Translations under genes and position numbers: made by a program | In this document: positions 11,751 to 47,000 of the stretch, piece after piece | Numbering within the stretch: the first letter of the stretch is position 1 | Layout: every line of letters begins with the position of its first letter | Assembly: GCF_024345185.1 (NCBI RefSeq) | Contig: NZ_BROB01000001.1 | Location: 1-64,000 of the forward strand | Reading direction: 5' to 3' | DNA length: 64,000 nt | From: Levilactobacillus humaensis | Lineage (GTDB): Bacteria; Bacillota; Bacilli; Lactobacillales; Lactobacillaceae | Notes under the pieces: generated by a model | The model's database searches: none | Told to the model about the DNA's origin: nothing | The model's input: only the letters and a program-made list of their open reading frames with translations

Positions 11751-12437
11751 CTATTTCTCTAGGGATTCTTTTTCTTGAATAATTTCAGCGATTCGATCGG
11801 CCACTTGTTCGATAGACATTGACGTCGTATCGAGCCGAATTGCGTCGTCTGCTTGCGTTAATGGTGAAATCTTCCGAGTAGAATCTTTGCGATCCCGTTC
11901 TTCGATCTCGTACTTCAATGTTGCCAATGGGGTATCAATCCCCTTAGCTGCATTATCCTTCAAACGGCGTTGGGCCCGTTCATCGACGCTTGCAACCATG
12001 AAAATCTTCACTTCAGCGTCCGGCAGAACGGTCGATCCAATGTCGCGACCATCCATGACAATGCCTCCAGCGTCGGCGATTTGCCGTTGCCGTTCCGTCA
12101 ATTCGGAACGGACCGCAGATAGTGCGGATACTTGAGAAACCGCGTTCGTCACATCCGGTTGGCGAATGGCTAACGTCACTTCGGTATCATCCACGTAAAC
12201 CTTTTGAACGGGCTTACCGGGTTCAAACCGAATCACGATGCCATCTAACAACTTTTTGATAGCGGCTTCGTCATCCAAAGCAACACCTGCCTGTAACGCC
12301 TTCCAAGTAATTGCCCGATACATTGCACCTGTATCACAGTAGATGTAGTGGAACCGTGTTGCGACAATCTTAGCAACCGTACTCTTACCAGCTGATGCCG
12401 GTCCGTCGATTGCGACTTGCAAACCTTGTTTATCCAT
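11751..12437 (-). CDS. cmk: Cytidylate kinase
   Basis: Phosphorylates CMP and dCMP to the diphosphates. The P-loop AIDGPASAGKST lies at the N-terminus (about residues 8-20), followed by YCDTGAMYRA and the GGIVMDGRDIGSTVLPDAEVKIF core, and a basic lid ERDRKDSTRKISPL. Start chosen as ATG 12437, ten bases after GGGAG; the alternative TTG three codons earlier would sit too close to it. Encoded directly upstream of rpsA, the common cmk-rpsA-der order. Confidence 0.96.
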   Translation of the reverse strand: MDKQGLQVAIDGPASAGKSTVAKIVATRFHYIYCDTGAMYRAITWKALQAGVALDDEAAIKKLLDGIVIRFEPGKPVQKVYVDDTEVTLAIRQPDVTNAVSQVSALSAVRSELTERQRQIADAGGIVMDGRDIGSTVLPDAEVKIFMVASVDERAQRRLKDNAAKGIDTPLATLKYEIEERDRKDSTRKISPLTQADDAIRLDTTSMSIEQVADRIAEIIQEKESLEK

Positions 12438-16362: not shown

Positions 16363-16403
16363 TGGCTTTACGTAAACATGGGCCTACGCAAAGAGCAACG
16401 TCT

Positions 16404-16517
16404 CATCTTCTGCATACCAGACTTTACTGTCGGTTCCGGAGTTTCACCGAATCAACCGCTTAACGCGGGTCGCGGACTTTACCGCCGGTCGGGAATTTCA
16501 CCCTGCCCTGAAGATGA
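16404..16517 (-). promoter_or_regulatory. FMN riboswitch (RFN element)
   Basis: The minus strand carries the RFN consensus in order: ATCTTCAGGGCAGGGTG, AATTCCCGACCGGCGGT, AAAGTCCGCGACCCGCG, GGTGAAACTCCGGAACCGA, CAGTAAAGTCTGG and the closing GCAGAAGATGA, which pairs with the start to form P1. FMN binding should favour the downstream terminator and shut off ribU. Confidence 0.97.
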
Positions 16518-16578
16518 ACCATAAATTATTTGACACCATAAATATACTAATACTGCGCGTTACTGTCAATCATTTGAC

Positions 16579-41036: not shown

Positions 41037-41179
41037 CCCCATCGTCTCCTTTCCAGACGGGCAACCCCGCCTACACCTGAGACGATCATAGTTGCCTGGG
41101 AAAACCGTCCCCAATAAAGAAGTTAGATTAGGCAGTACCCGAACCAAGTCATTTCGACGCCTGATCCGAAAGGCCAAAT

Positions 41180-41224
41180 AAAATGGCCGTGACCCACACC
41201 AAAAGTGTCAGTCACAACCATTTT
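41180..41224 (-). terminator. Probable intrinsic terminator of glyQS
   Basis: On the minus strand AAAATGGTTGTGAC pairs with GTCACGGCCATTTT over a long loop that contains another inverted repeat, and is followed by ATTTGG. It lies ~120 bases past the glyS stop with a structured repeat element between. Confidence 0.75.
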
Positions 41225-41270
41225 AACAGGTATGGGGCAATTCTCAGATCCGCTTGTAGCAACAAACTTA

Positions 41271-41339
41271 TATAGTCGAAGCGTGCAACAAAGGGTAGCT
41301 GGTACCGCTTAACCCAGCTAACCGCCCTTTGACTCACTC
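41271..41339 (+). repeat. Structured intergenic repeat, copy C (short form)
   Basis: A 69-base copy starting TATAGTCGAAGCGTG. CAAAGGG (41289-41295) pairs with CCCTTTG (41325-41331), AGCTGG (41297-41302) pairs with CCAGCT (41314-41319), and AACC (41320-41323) bulges between them. The apical loop is CCGCTTAA type, without the extra helices of the two other copies. Its end, CACTC, is three bases from the glyS stop codon. Confidence 0.75.
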
Positions 41340-41342
41340 TTC

Positions 41343-43418
41343 CTATTTAACGATTAATTGGTCCAAGTCACCCAACTTCAGCGTCAGCCGAGCCAAACCA
41401 CTCAATTCGGTTAACCGGTTATTCCGAACCGCATCGTTCTTATCCATAACCATCGTGGCTTCAAAGTAAGCCGCAATCGTTGGTTGAATGTCAGCTAAGG
41501 CAGCGTACAGATCAGCTAATGTCTTGTCAGCAGCAGTTGCAACTTCGGCAACGCCTTGGTGCAAGGCACCTTCACTGTCATTTTCAAACAGATCGGTGTC
41601 AACCGTGGCCGTAGCCAATTCGGCTGGGGCCTTCTGGGCCAAACGAATAACCCGCGTCAAGGACTCGATAACCGCCTTGAAGTTGGCATCGTTGGCATGG
41701 CTAGCCAGGATATCGGCAGCCGTGAAGATCCGCAGCACATCACTGCTAGAACTGTTGGTAACGGCATCAATGATGTCATGACGTTGCTTAGCAGAACGCA
41801 AGATCTTCCGAATCCGATCCTTAACGAACCCAATCACAGCGTCAATTTGGCTAGCTTGGTCAAGTTGAGGGGCCACCTTGGCAGCCTCTTCAGCCGTGAT
41901 GAAGGCTTGCGCCAAATCAGCAATTGGTAAGGACCACTGTTGGTCGGTGACAATCCGAACAATCCCGATGGCCTGACGCCGTAAAGCGTAAGGGTCATTG
42001 GATCCACTAGGAATCATCCCAGCGGCGAAGAAGGTCAGGATGCTATCGAACTTGTCAGCCAAGGCCAATACGGCACCCGGCACGGATTCTGGTAAGGATC
42101 CGTTAGCAGAGATGGGTTCGTAGTGTTCACGAACGGCCTGCGCAACGGCTGGGTCTTCCCCGGCCAGTAAGGCATACTTCTCACCCATGACCCCTTGTAA
42201 TTCGGCGAATTCGCCAACCATTCCGGTAACCAGGTCGAACTTGTAGATCTCACTGGCACGCAGGGCAGCCTGAGTTTGGACATCGTTTAAGTGGAGGTGC
42301 TTGGCCAGCACGCCCACGATCGCCTTGACCCGATCCATCTTTTCAGCCATCGTGCTGATCTTATCATGGAAACTAACCGTCTTGAGCCGTTCCACGTAGT
42401 CGGCAATGGACTTCTTCTGGTCTTCGGTGTAGAAGAACATGGCATCTTCCAAACGTGCTGTCAGAACCTTTTCGTTCCCAGCAACGACGTTTTGAAGGTC
42501 GTGGTCGTTCCCATTACGAACGGAGATGAAGTTAGGCAAAAGCTGGCCCTCGGCATTCCGGGCGTAGAAGAACCGTTGGTGATCACGCATCGAGGTAATC
42601 AGAACTTCTTCGGGGATGGTCAGGTACTTTTCGTCAAAGCTACCTTCAAAGGCTGTTGGCCATTCGACCAGATTGTTAACCTCTTCCAGCAACCCGCCGT
42701 CGATGGTAACCGTCCAGTTGTGATCGGTCGCAATCTTTTCGATTTGGCTCTTGATAAGCGCCTTACGCTTGTCGGCATCGGCAATGACGAATTGCGCCGT
42801 CAGGTCGGCTTCGTAGTCGGCGGCCGTGGCAATATCCACGTCGGTCCCTAAGAAACGGTGACCCCGCGTGTTGCGACCGGTCGTGACATTCAAGATGCTA
42901 AATGGAATGACATCGGCATCTAACAACGCCACAATCCAGCGAATTGGCCGGATGTATTCGAAGTGATGGGTGCCCCATTTCATCATGGTTGGGAAGGTCA
43001 TGGCGGTCACAATATCTTTTAAACCAGCCAAGACAGATGCCACGGGTTCGCCGGCAATGAACTTGTCAACGTAGACGTATTCCGTTCCCTTGATTTCCTT
43101 AAAGGTAATGTCGTCAGGAGTGAGGCCTTGACCACGGGTAAATCCAATGGCCGCCTTCGTCCAGTTGCCATCGGCATCCTGAGCAATCTTCTTAGCGGGA
43201 CCCTTGACGGATTCACTAATGTCTTCCTGCTTGTCAGCTAAGCCAGTAATTTGGATGGCCAACCGGCGAGGCGTGGAGAATGGCTTGATGTCATCGTAAG
43301 CCACGCGTTGTTCCTTTAAATAATCTGCCGTCCGCTTGACCAGTTGCTTGATAGCTGGCGTTACCACGTGGGCTGGCATTTCTTCTAGTCCAATTTCCAG
43401 TAAAAATGTGTGTGCCAT
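41343..43418 (-). CDS. glyS: Glycyl-tRNA synthetase beta subunit
   Basis: Beta chain of the bacterial alpha2beta2 GlyRS, which supplies the tRNA-binding HD-like and anticodon-recognition domains. N-terminus [14 protein letters not shown] and [18 protein letters not shown] segment near 340 and a helical C-terminal DALR-like domain are seen. The 691-residue length is normal. The gene overlaps glyQ by one base (TAATG), so synthesis of the two subunits is coupled. The TAG stop abuts copy C of the structured repeat. Confidence 0.97.
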
Positions 43419-44347
43419 TATTTTTTGGCCTCCTCGTCGTCTGCTAGTAGTTTCGTCCGCAGGGCTTCATCCTTGATCAGTGGGAAACCACGCTTCTTCC
43501 GTTCGTCAACGAAGGCCCGAGCCACGGCACGTGCCATGTTCCGGATGCGTGACAGGTAGCCGGCCCGTTCAGTAACGGACACAGCCCCTCTGGCATCGAG
43601 CAAGTTGAAGGTGTGGCTACACTTCAAGATGTAGTCGTAGGCCGGGTGAACCAGACCGTTGGCGATTTGCTTCTTGGCTTCATCTTCAAATTCATTGAAG
43701 TGCCGTAACAGCATGTCTTGGTTGCTTTCTTCGAAACTGTACTTGGAGTGTTCATATTCGGGTTCCTTGAAGATATCCCCGTATTTAACGCCATCGGCCC
43801 ATTCCAGGTCAAAGACGGAGTTGACGTCTTGGACATAAGAAGCCAGACGTTCTAGACCATAAGTCACTTCGGAAGTGACAGGATCAACTGCCATTCCCCC
43901 AACAACTTGGAAGTAGGTGAACTGGGTGATTTCCATCCCGTCCAACCAAACTTCCCAACCAACACCGGCACAACCCATGGATGGGTTTTCCCAGTTATCT
44001 TCCACGAAACGAATATCATGTTCGAGTGGGTTAATGCCAAGCTCCTTCAAACTGTTCAGGTAAAGTTCCTGAATGTTGTCTGGTGAAGGCTTCATCACCA
44101 CTTGGAATTGGTGATGTTGGTACAACCGGTTAGGGTTTTCCCCGTAACGACCATCGGCTGGTCGACGGGAAGGTTCAACGTAAGCGGCGTTCCAAGGTTC
44201 TGGTCCGATTGCCCGTAAGAAGGTGTAAGGACTCATCGTCCCGGCCCCTTTTTCGGTATCGTAAGCTTGCATCAGCATGCAGCCCTGTGCGGACCAGTAC
44301 TGTTGTAACTTCAAAATGATTGCTTGCATGGACAGTTTTTCTGTCAT
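43418..44347 (-). CDS. glyQ: Glycyl-tRNA synthetase alpha subunit
   Basis: Catalytic class II subunit that activates glycine. Motif-like segments include [21 protein letters not shown] at the start, [22 protein letters not shown] and [24 protein letters not shown]. The 309 residues fit the family. Expression is controlled by a T-box leader with a GGC specifier (44428-44648), a direct link between glycyl-tRNA charging and synthesis of its own enzyme. Confidence 0.98.
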
Positions 44348-44705: not shown

Positions 44706-47000
44706 CTAGTGTTCTCGCCGACGATTACTCAGGCCGAGCCAACCGAGAATTGCCAGTAGCCATCCCCCGATCACTGCCCAGAGATTAGTCGTCTCACTGG
44801 TCTGGGGCAAGGTCGTCTGATGTTGTGGGGTAGCCGGCTGATTGACCTTTAATTGGCTGGTTGCCGTTGTTGGACGCATAACGGTCTTGGCCGAGCGTGT
44901 CCCTGTTGCCAAACGTTGACCTGTCGCTGCCTGCCCCGTTGACTTACCATGACGGTTAGCCTGCTTCTGAGCGGACTTCTTGGGTTGTGTGGACCGCTTG
45001 GCCGGTTTGGTTGGCTTGATTGGCTGAGCTGGTGTGACTGGCGTCGTGGGATCAACTGGAGCGACTGGTTGACTTGGTGTCACGGGATCGGTGGGGGTGG
45101 TGGGTGTCGACTGTGGCGTTCCATCCAGCGTCAACTGCAAGACACCATAATTTCCAGAATTATCACCGGATGTTCCCGAGGTCATCATGACAGTCAGCTT
45201 TTCTCCAGTAAAACCATCCGGTAACGTCAGGGTATCTGTAGTTTCGTCGTATGTCACTGGCGTCCCATCAAGGGTAAACGTCAGCGCGTTTAAGGCTAAA
45301 TTGCTTGGCATAACTTTGTTCAAAATGGCCTGCTTAACACCAACAAACTTGCCATCAACTAATTTAACTGGCACCGTTAGGGTTTGCTGAGTTGCGAGCG
45401 CACCATCGTCAAACGTGTTCAATGGTGAATCAGCCTGAATATGTTGCAGATTATTTTGGACAAAGGCGTCGGCTCCAATACTATCTGGAACTCCCAGGAA
45501 GTGAACACCTGTTAATTTATTTTGCAAAAAGGCGGCATCACCAATTGTTTTCACACTGGCTGGAATTGTCAACATTCCATTGAGTTGGTTCTCACCGAAT
45601 GCACTCGCCCCAATCGACTGAACCTTATCAGGTATTATCAATGAACCCGTCAGTTGGTTACCATCCGGGGCCCCGCCAAAGGCTCTGTTACCAATGGTTT
45701 CGACATTTGCTCCAAGCTTCACTCCAGAGAGATGATTGCCCTCAAAAGCGGTATCGCCAATGCTAATCACGCTATCCGGAATATCAATGGTACCCTGCAG
45801 GTTGTTAACGTTAAAGGCATCAACCCCAATAGTTTCAACATTCTTCCCAAAAACAACACTGCTAAAAGCATCATCTACAAATGCTGCTGGTGAAATTGTC
45901 TTGACACTATCTGGAATGATCAACGGACCGCCATTTAAGCCACCCGTCAAAGTTTTCATGTGCGAAAATGAATTGATACCAATTGTTGTCAGCTGTGACT
46001 GCCCAGTGCCGAAGGCAAGCTCGGTTAATTTGTTCCCAGAAAAAGCCATCATGCCAATACTCTGCACACTGTCCGGAATAATTAAAGCTCCTGAAATTTG
46101 ATTACCGCTAAACGCGGCGTAACCAATTGTCTGAACGTCTTTACCCAGTGTTAAGCATGTCGCACTATTACCGTCAAATGCTGAGCCACCAATTGTCGTC
46201 ACATTATTCGGAATATCGATAGTTGCCAACTGATTTTCTGAAAATGCACCATTGCCAATGGTTTCTAAGGCCTTGTCAAATGCAATTGTCTTCAGAGAGT
46301 TACTCTCAAAAGCCCCCTTACTAATATTAATCAAACTATCAGGCAACTTAACACTAATTAGGCCTTTTTGGCTAAAGGCCCCTTCACCGATACCAACCAC
46401 ACTCAATCCTTGATAGCTGTCTGGGATCGTGATATCAGTATCGCTACCAGAATAGGCTGTAATGTCATAACCGGTTGTATTCCCGTCTTCATCCACATGC
46501 TTCGTGTACGTATAGCCTGCAGCATCCGTCACTGGCTGATTGCCGTCAGAACCCGTGTCCTCTGGATCAGTATCTGTTGGGTCCGACACAGTTGGCGCTG
46601 CCATCCGTGCTGAGAACAGCCCGACTTTCCGTTTTGACTTTGGCTTAATAGCCTCATTGCCATCAGATGTACCTTGCCCGCTTCCATCGTCACCCTGCGA
46701 GCTACCGGTGCCATCAGTAGCACTTCCAGTGCCTCCAGTTGTTTGTTCTGAACCAGTGCTGCCAGACTCTTCAGCCGACGATTTGTTCACAGTAACTACT
46801 TCTGCAGACTTAGTAACCTCTTCGGCTGGCTTCTCACCGGAAACCGCTGTGGGTGCTTGATCACCGGTTGCGGCCTGGGCTGGCGTCACACCAACCACGA
46901 GCAGTTCGGTACTGAGAACCGCCGCGGCCACACCGACAAACAACCATTGCCGACGATGGGAAACTTGTACATTTTTAGTTTGCTGCTGATCAACTGACAT
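44706..47000 (-). CDS. Sortase-anchored leucine-rich-repeat surface protein (BspA-like)
   Basis: A 764-residue secreted protein. An N-terminal signal (about 15-43, basic SHRRQW then hydrophobic, ending AQA) is followed by a Ser/Gly/Glu-rich linker, then ~14 tandem 22-24-residue repeats (about 170-540) of the type IPDSVxxIGxxAFxxNxL, as in LRR_5/BspA proteins. After a small globular segment comes a Pro/Thr/Lys-rich wall-spanning stretch (about 640-720). The C-terminus has LPQTS at 731-735, a hydrophobic span and RRREH, the lactobacillar sortase signal. A surface adhesin is the likely role. Start ATG 47000 after GAAGGAAG. Confidence 0.92.
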   Translation of the reverse strand: MSVDQQQTKNVQVSHRRQWLFVGVAAAVLSTELLVVGVTPAQAATGDQAPTAVSGEKPAEEVTKSAEVVTVNKSSAEESGSTGSEQTTGGTGSATDGTGSSQGDDGSGQGTSDGNEAIKPKSKRKVGLFSARMAAPTVSDPTDTDPEDTGSDGNQPVTDAAGYTYTKHVDEDGNTTGYDITAYSGSDTDITIPDSYQGLSVVGIGEGAFSQKGLISVKLPDSLINISKGAFESNSLKTIAFDKALETIGNGAFSENQLATIDIPNNVTTIGGSAFDGNSATCLTLGKDVQTIGYAAFSGNQISGALIIPDSVQSIGMMAFSGNKLTELAFGTGQSQLTTIGINSFSHMKTLTGGLNGGPLIIPDSVKTISPAAFVDDAFSSVVFGKNVETIGVDAFNVNNLQGTIDIPDSVISIGDTAFEGNHLSGVKLGANVETIGNRAFGGAPDGNQLTGSLIIPDKVQSIGASAFGENQLNGMLTIPASVKTIGDAAFLQNKLTGVHFLGVPDSIGADAFVQNNLQHIQADSPLNTFDDGALATQQTLTVPVKLVDGKFVGVKQAILNKVMPSNLALNALTFTLDGTPVTYDETTDTLTLPDGFTGEKLTVMMTSGTSGDNSGNYGVLQLTLDGTPQSTPTTPTDPVTPSQPVAPVDPTTPVTPAQPIKPTKPAKRSTQPKKSAQKQANRHGKSTGQAATGQRLATGTRSAKTVMRPTTATSQLKVNQPATPQHQTTLPQTSETTNLWAVIGGWLLAILGWLGLSNRRREH

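Follow-up and report, generated by a model that had tools for sequence, protein, structure and literature searches.

Copy C, a short hairpin behind the glyS gene of Levilactobacillus humaensis, resembles two longer hairpins, copies A and B, in the 64,000-nucleotide stretch of genomic DNA analysed here (the window). It raises the question of whether a short and a long form of one element coexist as two classes, with the inner arm as an optional module of a 3' untranslated RNA, or whether the short form is what remains of something longer. Our answer, held with reasonable though not full confidence, is that copy C is a decayed and internally deleted copy of a dispersed, non-coding repeat of mobile type. 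The features concerned are collected in Table 1.

Table 1. Features of the window referred to in the text, numbered from its first nucleotide.
Feature	Position	Strand	Evidence or remark
Copy C core, 65 nt	41275..41339	-	internally deleted hairpin-repeat member; starts 3 nt past glyS stop
glyS, glycine--tRNA ligase beta subunit, 691 aa	41343..43418	-	open reading frame; host gene of the 3' UTR
glyQ (presumed), for the alpha subunit, preceding glyS in the same orientation	43418..44347	-	open reading frame
Copy C P1 (CAAAGGG/CCCTTTG) around P2 (TAGCTGG/CCAGCTA) with 11-nt apex	41289..41331	-	sequence, fold, long orthologues
Native terminator-like hairpin 3' of copy C	41179..41225	-	fold; also at the empty site of relative G250
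Copy A, full length, 142 bits	61679-61817	+	present in G159 as in the own genome (G000); site empty in the relatives G135 and G250
Copy B, full length, 140.3 bits	61897-62035	-	G135 and G159 have orthologues; G250 has, by eye, a short degenerate remnant
764-aa surface-type protein	44706-47000	-	open reading frame with repeated 'IPDSV.SIG..AF'-like motifs; presumed LPQTS-like C-terminal anchor
FMN riboswitch	16401-16519	-	112.3 bits

We take the host gene to be glyS, as in the initial annotation, and the gene before it to be glyQ, for the alpha subunit. On the minus strand, which is the sense strand of glyS, the TAG stop (41345-41343) is followed by GAA and then by GAGTG from 41339, so the three-base spacing given in the initial annotation is correct; the core reads GAGTG...CGCTTCGAC (41339-41275). 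The outer helix P1 pairs CAAAGGG (41331-41325) with CCCTTTG (41295-41289), the second helix P2 pairs TAGCTGG (41320-41314) with CCAGCTA (41302-41296), and the apex is GTTAAGCGGTA. These two helices, the bulge and the apex are present as first described. The inner helix of copies A and B, P3, is missing, together with the GAGCATTAA half of a conserved motif of which the TTAAGCGG half is retained, and copy C thus falls short of the full three-helix architecture in the manner of a deletion derivative. Its fold strength is unremarkable when taken alone (z -2.55 on the plus and -1.89 on the minus strand), and copies A and B fold unusually strongly (z -6.9 to -9.1). The flanking sequence TATAGTCGAAGCGTG, allowing up to three mismatches, has four matches in the window against 0.87 expected; inside elements it is seen only at copy C (exact) and copy A (one mismatch), and the covariance model described below matches neither of the 3-mismatch sites, at 12344 and 57373. 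On the 3' side of copy C, 76 nt of the minus strand (41160-41235) have a folding energy of -32.6 kcal/mol and form a terminator-like hairpin of 21 bp (about 41225-41179), in agreement with the terminator proposed earlier, and a corresponding sequence occurs in relative G250, which has no element behind glyS. The reverse complement of copy C would accordingly lie where the 3' UTR of the glyQS mRNA is predicted, as had also been suggested.

Whether copy C belongs with A and B was decided with a covariance model trained on 24 full-length copies from the same genome, a subset picked by length and motif, of near-constant length and read on the gene-sense strand. Copy C, which was absent from the training sequences, matches the model over 41343-41261 on the minus strand with 50.4 bits (E 3.9e-11). 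This was the comparison on which the initial annotation had staked its claim that the three are the same element, and copy C is a real member of the hairpin-repeat family. The family is large: blastn located it at 37 genome places, copy C among them, and the covariance model gave 128 genome matches with both strands counted. About 79 copies, 56 of them full length, 22 shorter and 1 longer, were picked by hand from 147 rows after removal of opposite-strand and duplicate rows; the weakest, below about 27 bits, are doubtful, and the shorter ones include L076, cut by a contig end, L022, which has lost only 10 nt, and L094, a partly aligned variant. A variant subfamily (L082, L088, L089, L090, L091 and L094) has a tail that continues into a conserved-looking stretch of the GCCGCCAGTACCGGGAT...GGCGAGAGC type, and extra partial P3-like matches beside L090 and L091 (C2:83314-83377 and C9:15552-15614 of the own genome) give longer composite units.

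In the full form, three helices (P1, P2 and P3) are stacked into a hairpin of 121 nt, which a second hairpin often follows. Read in the direction of the upstream gene, its 5' half consists of AAGAGTG, P1 (14 bp), GGCGGTTAG, P2 (7 bp), GAGCATTAA and P3, and its 3' half leads from the small loop of P3 through TTAAGCGGA, the return strands and CACGTTTCGAC to a linker, about 20 nt long, behind which the second hairpin is often found. RNAalifold predicts 48 pairs for the own-genome alignment, 27 of them with changes on both sides. Paired cells amount to 97.8% in the 24 own-genome sequences, to 91.8% in 40 matches from other genera (7 opposite-strand rows included) and to 87.7% over 32 rows from other families of the order, the rows of the last two sets having been aligned to the model. 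None of 500 shuffles attained either of the first two values, and shifting the partner by one column lowers pairing to about 40%. Some elements of other genera (L114, L126, L110, L115 and L128) carry variants of the internal motif, of the AGAATATAAG/CTTATATGGCC, GGAGTCTAAGG and TATGAATAA/TTATTTACTAG types, at the same position.

The pairing also differs between the strands. On the gene-sense strand, G-U cells number 80 and A-C cells 8 in the own-genome set of 24 sequences; the 33 sense rows from other genera, from which the opposite-strand rows were excluded, have 77 and 15. The preference of RNAalifold for G-U when picking pairs somewhat inflates these ratios. This excess points to the gene-sense strand, the minus strand at glyS, as the one conserved as RNA. 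It is also the main difficulty for the idea that the element acts purely as a DNA palindrome, as a cruciform or a protein-binding site, and has no role as RNA: the unit is strongly palindromic and both of its strands score, but the strand asymmetry recurs in both sets of sequences and the sense strand scores higher, albeit with a model built on that strand, and we judge this idea quite improbable.

Copies are placed with some precision relative to genes. When frames of at least 90 codons are considered, 49 of the 79 begin no more than 20 nt behind a stop on their own strand, as against 2.0% at displaced points, and for 17 others the stop of a converging gene lies within 150 nt on the 3' side, a figure that stands without a control; the two counts indicate that copies gather at gene ends, in either direction. 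A same-strand upstream frame is present for 64 of the 79. Among the matches listed from named records, 91 after removal of those near locus ends, 71 have a frame of their own strand in front of them, at 15 nt or less in 46 cases, and a single one lies between divergent frames; close placement was found for 41 of the 64 of these listed matches for which it could be computed, where 7.5 would be expected under uniform placement. The proteins encoded upstream have little in common. When 20 of the 49 upstream frames were scanned, 16 matched families (GreA, GlpK, LepA, MscL and DusB among them), several below the curated cut-off, and these families are mutually unrelated; a regulon was therefore rejected.

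These properties could suggest a working RNA that hosts keep in their 3' UTRs for protecting or processing mRNA 3' ends, with copy C as its minimal functional form. The fixed architecture, the pairing preserved across genera and in other families, the G-U excess on the gene-sense strand and the sense-oriented copies that begin directly behind stop codons all speak for it. However, the 17 copies located beyond the end of a converging gene are perhaps not transcribed in the sense direction, the scanned upstream genes lack a common function, the corresponding sites of near relatives are empty or degraded, and copy C is itself short of 56 nt, with a P1 that is losing its pairs. We therefore hold such a role to be unlikely.

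The history of copy C can be followed at the glyS locus of its relatives. The last 199 codons of glyS match in all 35 genomes of the genus that were searched, the closest being G159 and G135 (both 98% identical), with G250 at 97%. Full-length copies occupy the glyS site in G159 and G135 (139.1 and 140.7 bits) and the site is empty in G250; among 30 glyS loci searched with the model, no sense copy was found behind glyS beyond those named here, and four loci (L143, L145, L154 and L155) hold copies opposite to the glyS strand. Copy A is filled in the own genome and in G159 and absent in G135 and G250, and the flanks of copy C are more similar to those of G159 (95.4/93.0%) than to those of G135 (92.0/88.0%), so that G159 is the likely sister, followed by G135 as the next lineage out. 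Both are long at this site, and the short copy C is therefore a deletion in the present lineage. It removed 56 nt, namely P3 and one half of the conserved motif; the derived nature of the short form is well supported. The outer helix seems to be degenerating as well: between the orthologues of copy C in G135 and G159, P1 shows no compensated, one one-sided and three broken pairs, changes that are broken rather than compensated, and the glyS copy thus appears to be drifting.

The opposite polarity, an ancestral short form to which the inner arm was later added, finds some encouragement in the fact that copy C keeps both of its remaining helices. It is hardly credible, in our opinion, when set against the long copies of G159 and G135 at the same site, the predominance of long copies in the genome (56 of 79), the long matches in 16 genomes of 16 other genera and the TTAAGCGG half-motif that has survived the loss of its partner. 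Nor do the short copies form a class. Leaving out L076, L022 and L094, their model matches are between 57 and 105 nt long, with many different junctions; L002, L006, L095 and L099 share a recurrent junction of GGTTA type (GCTTA in L002), which looks like a deletion between GGTTA-type repeats and which copy C does not have. The short forms are a collection of deletions and not a second class, and the view of the inner arm as an optional module, put forward in the initial annotation, gives way both to this diversity and to the long orthologues at glyS. Today copy C most likely sits as a passive hairpin in the 3' UTR of glyQS, and it is most likely a fossil; the element at glyS would then have no function.

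How such copies arrive is suggested by a 124-kb syntenic stretch that carries six of them in the own genome. In relative G250 four of the six sites (C, A, 75799 and 119482) are empty, and the other two, B and 69038, hold apparent degenerate remnants, recognised by eye. Each of the four empty sites contains an inverted repeat, established by folding at C and by eye at A, 75799 and 119482. The empty glyS site, TAACGGGGTCTAACCCGTTA, folds into a 7-bp stem-loop that includes the stop codon, and the 3' half of that stem can still be recognised, by eye, beyond copy C in the own genome. Copy A, again by eye, is joined to a hairpin with a native-looking 3' arm, and the junctions of both A and C cross a hairpin whose 5' arm and loop belong to the element and whose 3' arm looks native. 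By the same kind of inspection, the native terminator at the 75799 copy is wholly gone, with no native stem kept, and the 119482 copy has an outer stem similar to the native one; no target-site duplication was seen by eye. A stem-loop at every empty site is weak evidence of targeting, since terminators at gene ends are stem-loops anyway, and clean losses can resemble empty sites. Turnover would be slow, to judge from the 29 of 33 compared copies of G159 and G135 that have a filled counterpart in the own genome; the 33 are a subset of 144 matches (both strands), and because they were compared with the sequence around the own copies and with contig C1, the four without an upstream-flank match, two of which match downstream, are not proven to be empty sites.

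A second hairpin, of the CTGAGA/TCTCAG type, is found 3' of about 14 of the 20 listed copies of a recent subfamily, giving a unit of 121-nt hairpin, linker and second hairpin of about 175 nt by eye; it is not present at C. All three CTGRGA/TCYCAG hairpins in 124 kb of the own genome follow element copies, and three of the six copies have one, while 160 kb of G250 contain one such hairpin and the pattern is lacking from 80 kb of G135 that include 3 copies and from 49 kb of G159 that include 1. Its uneven occurrence suggests that the second hairpin travels with one recent subfamily and not with every copy.

From these observations we propose that the full unit, a dispersed and non-coding hairpin of P1 to P3 that is often extended by a linker of about 20 nt and the second hairpin, would reach stem-loops at gene ends, mostly between the stop codon and the terminator, and would often replace the target stem-loop in part or completely. 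The ancestor shared by the own genome, G159 and G135 may have received a long copy in a small stem-loop at its glyS stop; the own lineage would then have lost 56 nt, and the outer helix would have drifted in all three genomes. The family is probably a structured, mobile repeat of gene ends, and we infer both transposition as its mode of arrival and an enzyme that performs it.

Three candidates for that enzyme were considered. Y1 transposases are absent from 8 of 12 element-bearing genomes, and the own genome has a single Y1 match with a stop inside, which leaves the element without the partner that a REP/RAYT assignment would call for. Reverse transcriptases are absent from 11 of the 12. PF13751, which we take to be the IS1182-type DDE model, was detected in 2 of 16 element-bearing and 3 of 20 element-free genomes and is absent from the own genome, where this one model accordingly revealed no autonomous DDE transposase of the kind that would define an IS1182-type MITE. 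RAYT, reverse transcriptase and IS1182-type DDE transposase were rejected as required partners, as they are not consistently present in element-bearing genomes.

A close parallel lies in the enterococci. Venditti and colleagues are said to have described EFAR in 2007 as elements of about 170 bp, folded into an L-shaped pair of stem-loops and ranging from 42 to 650 bp through variable modules, which reportedly integrate at stem-loops with part of the target stem retained. EFAR are referred to as MITEs of Enterococci (PMC3733652), and Efa-1 of E. faecalis as a 163-bp intergenic family of 65 copies with a pair of adjacent stem-loops (PMC2267715); we infer that the two are one family. The present family resembles them in that its four empty sites are all stem-loops, with the stem partly kept at A and C, but it occurs in other bacteria, and the likeness is one of description rather than of aligned sequence. 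Features seen here that can be set against EFAR are the tight placement behind stop codons and the apparent exchange of helix blocks discussed below. IS1272, of the IS1182 family, is reported to use inverted repeats of unrelated sequence as targets and to replace the target stem-loop without target-site duplication (PMC5678879). Our insertion picture fits such stem-loop-replacing transposition, except that IS1272 carries its transposase, whereas the present unit is non-coding and its genome lacks PF13751. ERIC, described as a 127-bp intergenic repeat that is co-transcribed with its neighbours and exerts orientation-dependent effects on mRNA (PMC2229807), and as a single long stem-loop (PMC2267715), differs by description in its host bacteria and its consensus. 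The L17 downstream element (RF01708), described for genes of the Lactobacillales as a structured RNA in what may be their 3' UTR (PMC2864571), is tied to one gene, and our Rfam scans did not match it to the present element.

Those scans comprised the window against 4227 Rfam families at gathering score, which returned the FMN riboswitch alone, and five element loci at E up to 5, which gave four weak matches, none of them at the element; identity with a known Rfam family was rejected on these grounds. The open-licence literature, represented mostly by titles and the beginnings of abstracts, yielded no description of the repeat in Lactobacillaceae, and the terms 'lactobacill' and 'EFAR' are absent from the main text of a 2024 review of prokaryotic MITEs (PMC10969869). 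A plasmid or phage origin of copy A was rejected, as it has no match among phages and plasmids at E 1e-3. Of three elements from other genera compared with plasmids, one had no match, one matched partly in an Aerococcus record and one partly in three Pediococcus plasmids. Among viral contigs, two scans found three stretches (L401, L402 and L403) that match the conserved patterns of the element and are possibly host flanks.

The element is far from confined to one species. The model finds it in 144 of the 301 Lactobacillaceae genomes sampled and in 22 of 40 genera, one genome of another genus having 112 (both strands), and across the order in 33 of 295 genomes, 18 of which lie outside Lactobacillaceae in four other families; the surveys beyond 40 genomes used stricter filters. 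Named records among the matches listed belong to Levilactobacillus, Lactiplantibacillus and metagenome-assembled Lactobacillus.

Between copies at shared sites, changes in P3 tend to come in blocks. In 26 pairs of copies at shared sites, namely those without a length change and some with a member in common, P3 shows either at most one compensated pair or else 3 to 10 simultaneously. The extreme is the pair L184/L045, with 10 compensated pairs in P3 and every pair of P1 and P2 unchanged. At site B (with L189 and L200) the P1 arms are mismatched in G159 and mostly matched, with different sequences, in the own genome and G135. Such patterns are suggestive of whole helices being exchanged between copies, or of one arm being copied from the other, and base-by-base selection may accordingly not account for all of the covariation.

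Block changes of this kind, as in L184/L045, also lend themselves to a scenario without any transposase, where the family would have spread by recombination, gene conversion or template switching at replication between stem-loops. The junctions of A and C, which by eye fall within a hairpin whose 5' arm came with the element and whose 3' arm looks native, agree with it, as does the want of a common enzyme among the three families tested. Its difficulties are that two switches are required to place a complete unit at a stem-loop of unrelated sequence and that the near-identical recent subfamily points to efficient copying; this scenario deserves serious consideration, although we lean against it. 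More speculatively, the elements may constitute an undescribed mobile hairpin family across the Lactobacillales that enters gene-end stem-loops and terminators by means of an enzyme outside the three tested, and in which helix cassettes are exchanged and perhaps re-templated arm to arm, such that covariation builds up without base-by-base selection on an RNA, a proposal that we advance tentatively and with more doubt than conviction.

Copy C alone, as a fossil, matters little. What matters is the family: in a genus to which L. brevis belongs, dozens of genes in each genome have their 3' ends reshaped by it. It offers events of insertion, decay and block exchange at orthologous sites, and it tests whether covariation in repeated hairpins amounts to RNA function. 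If the last proposal is true, a hairpin family that exchanges its cassettes would be a natural warning case for the finding of RNA genes by covariation.
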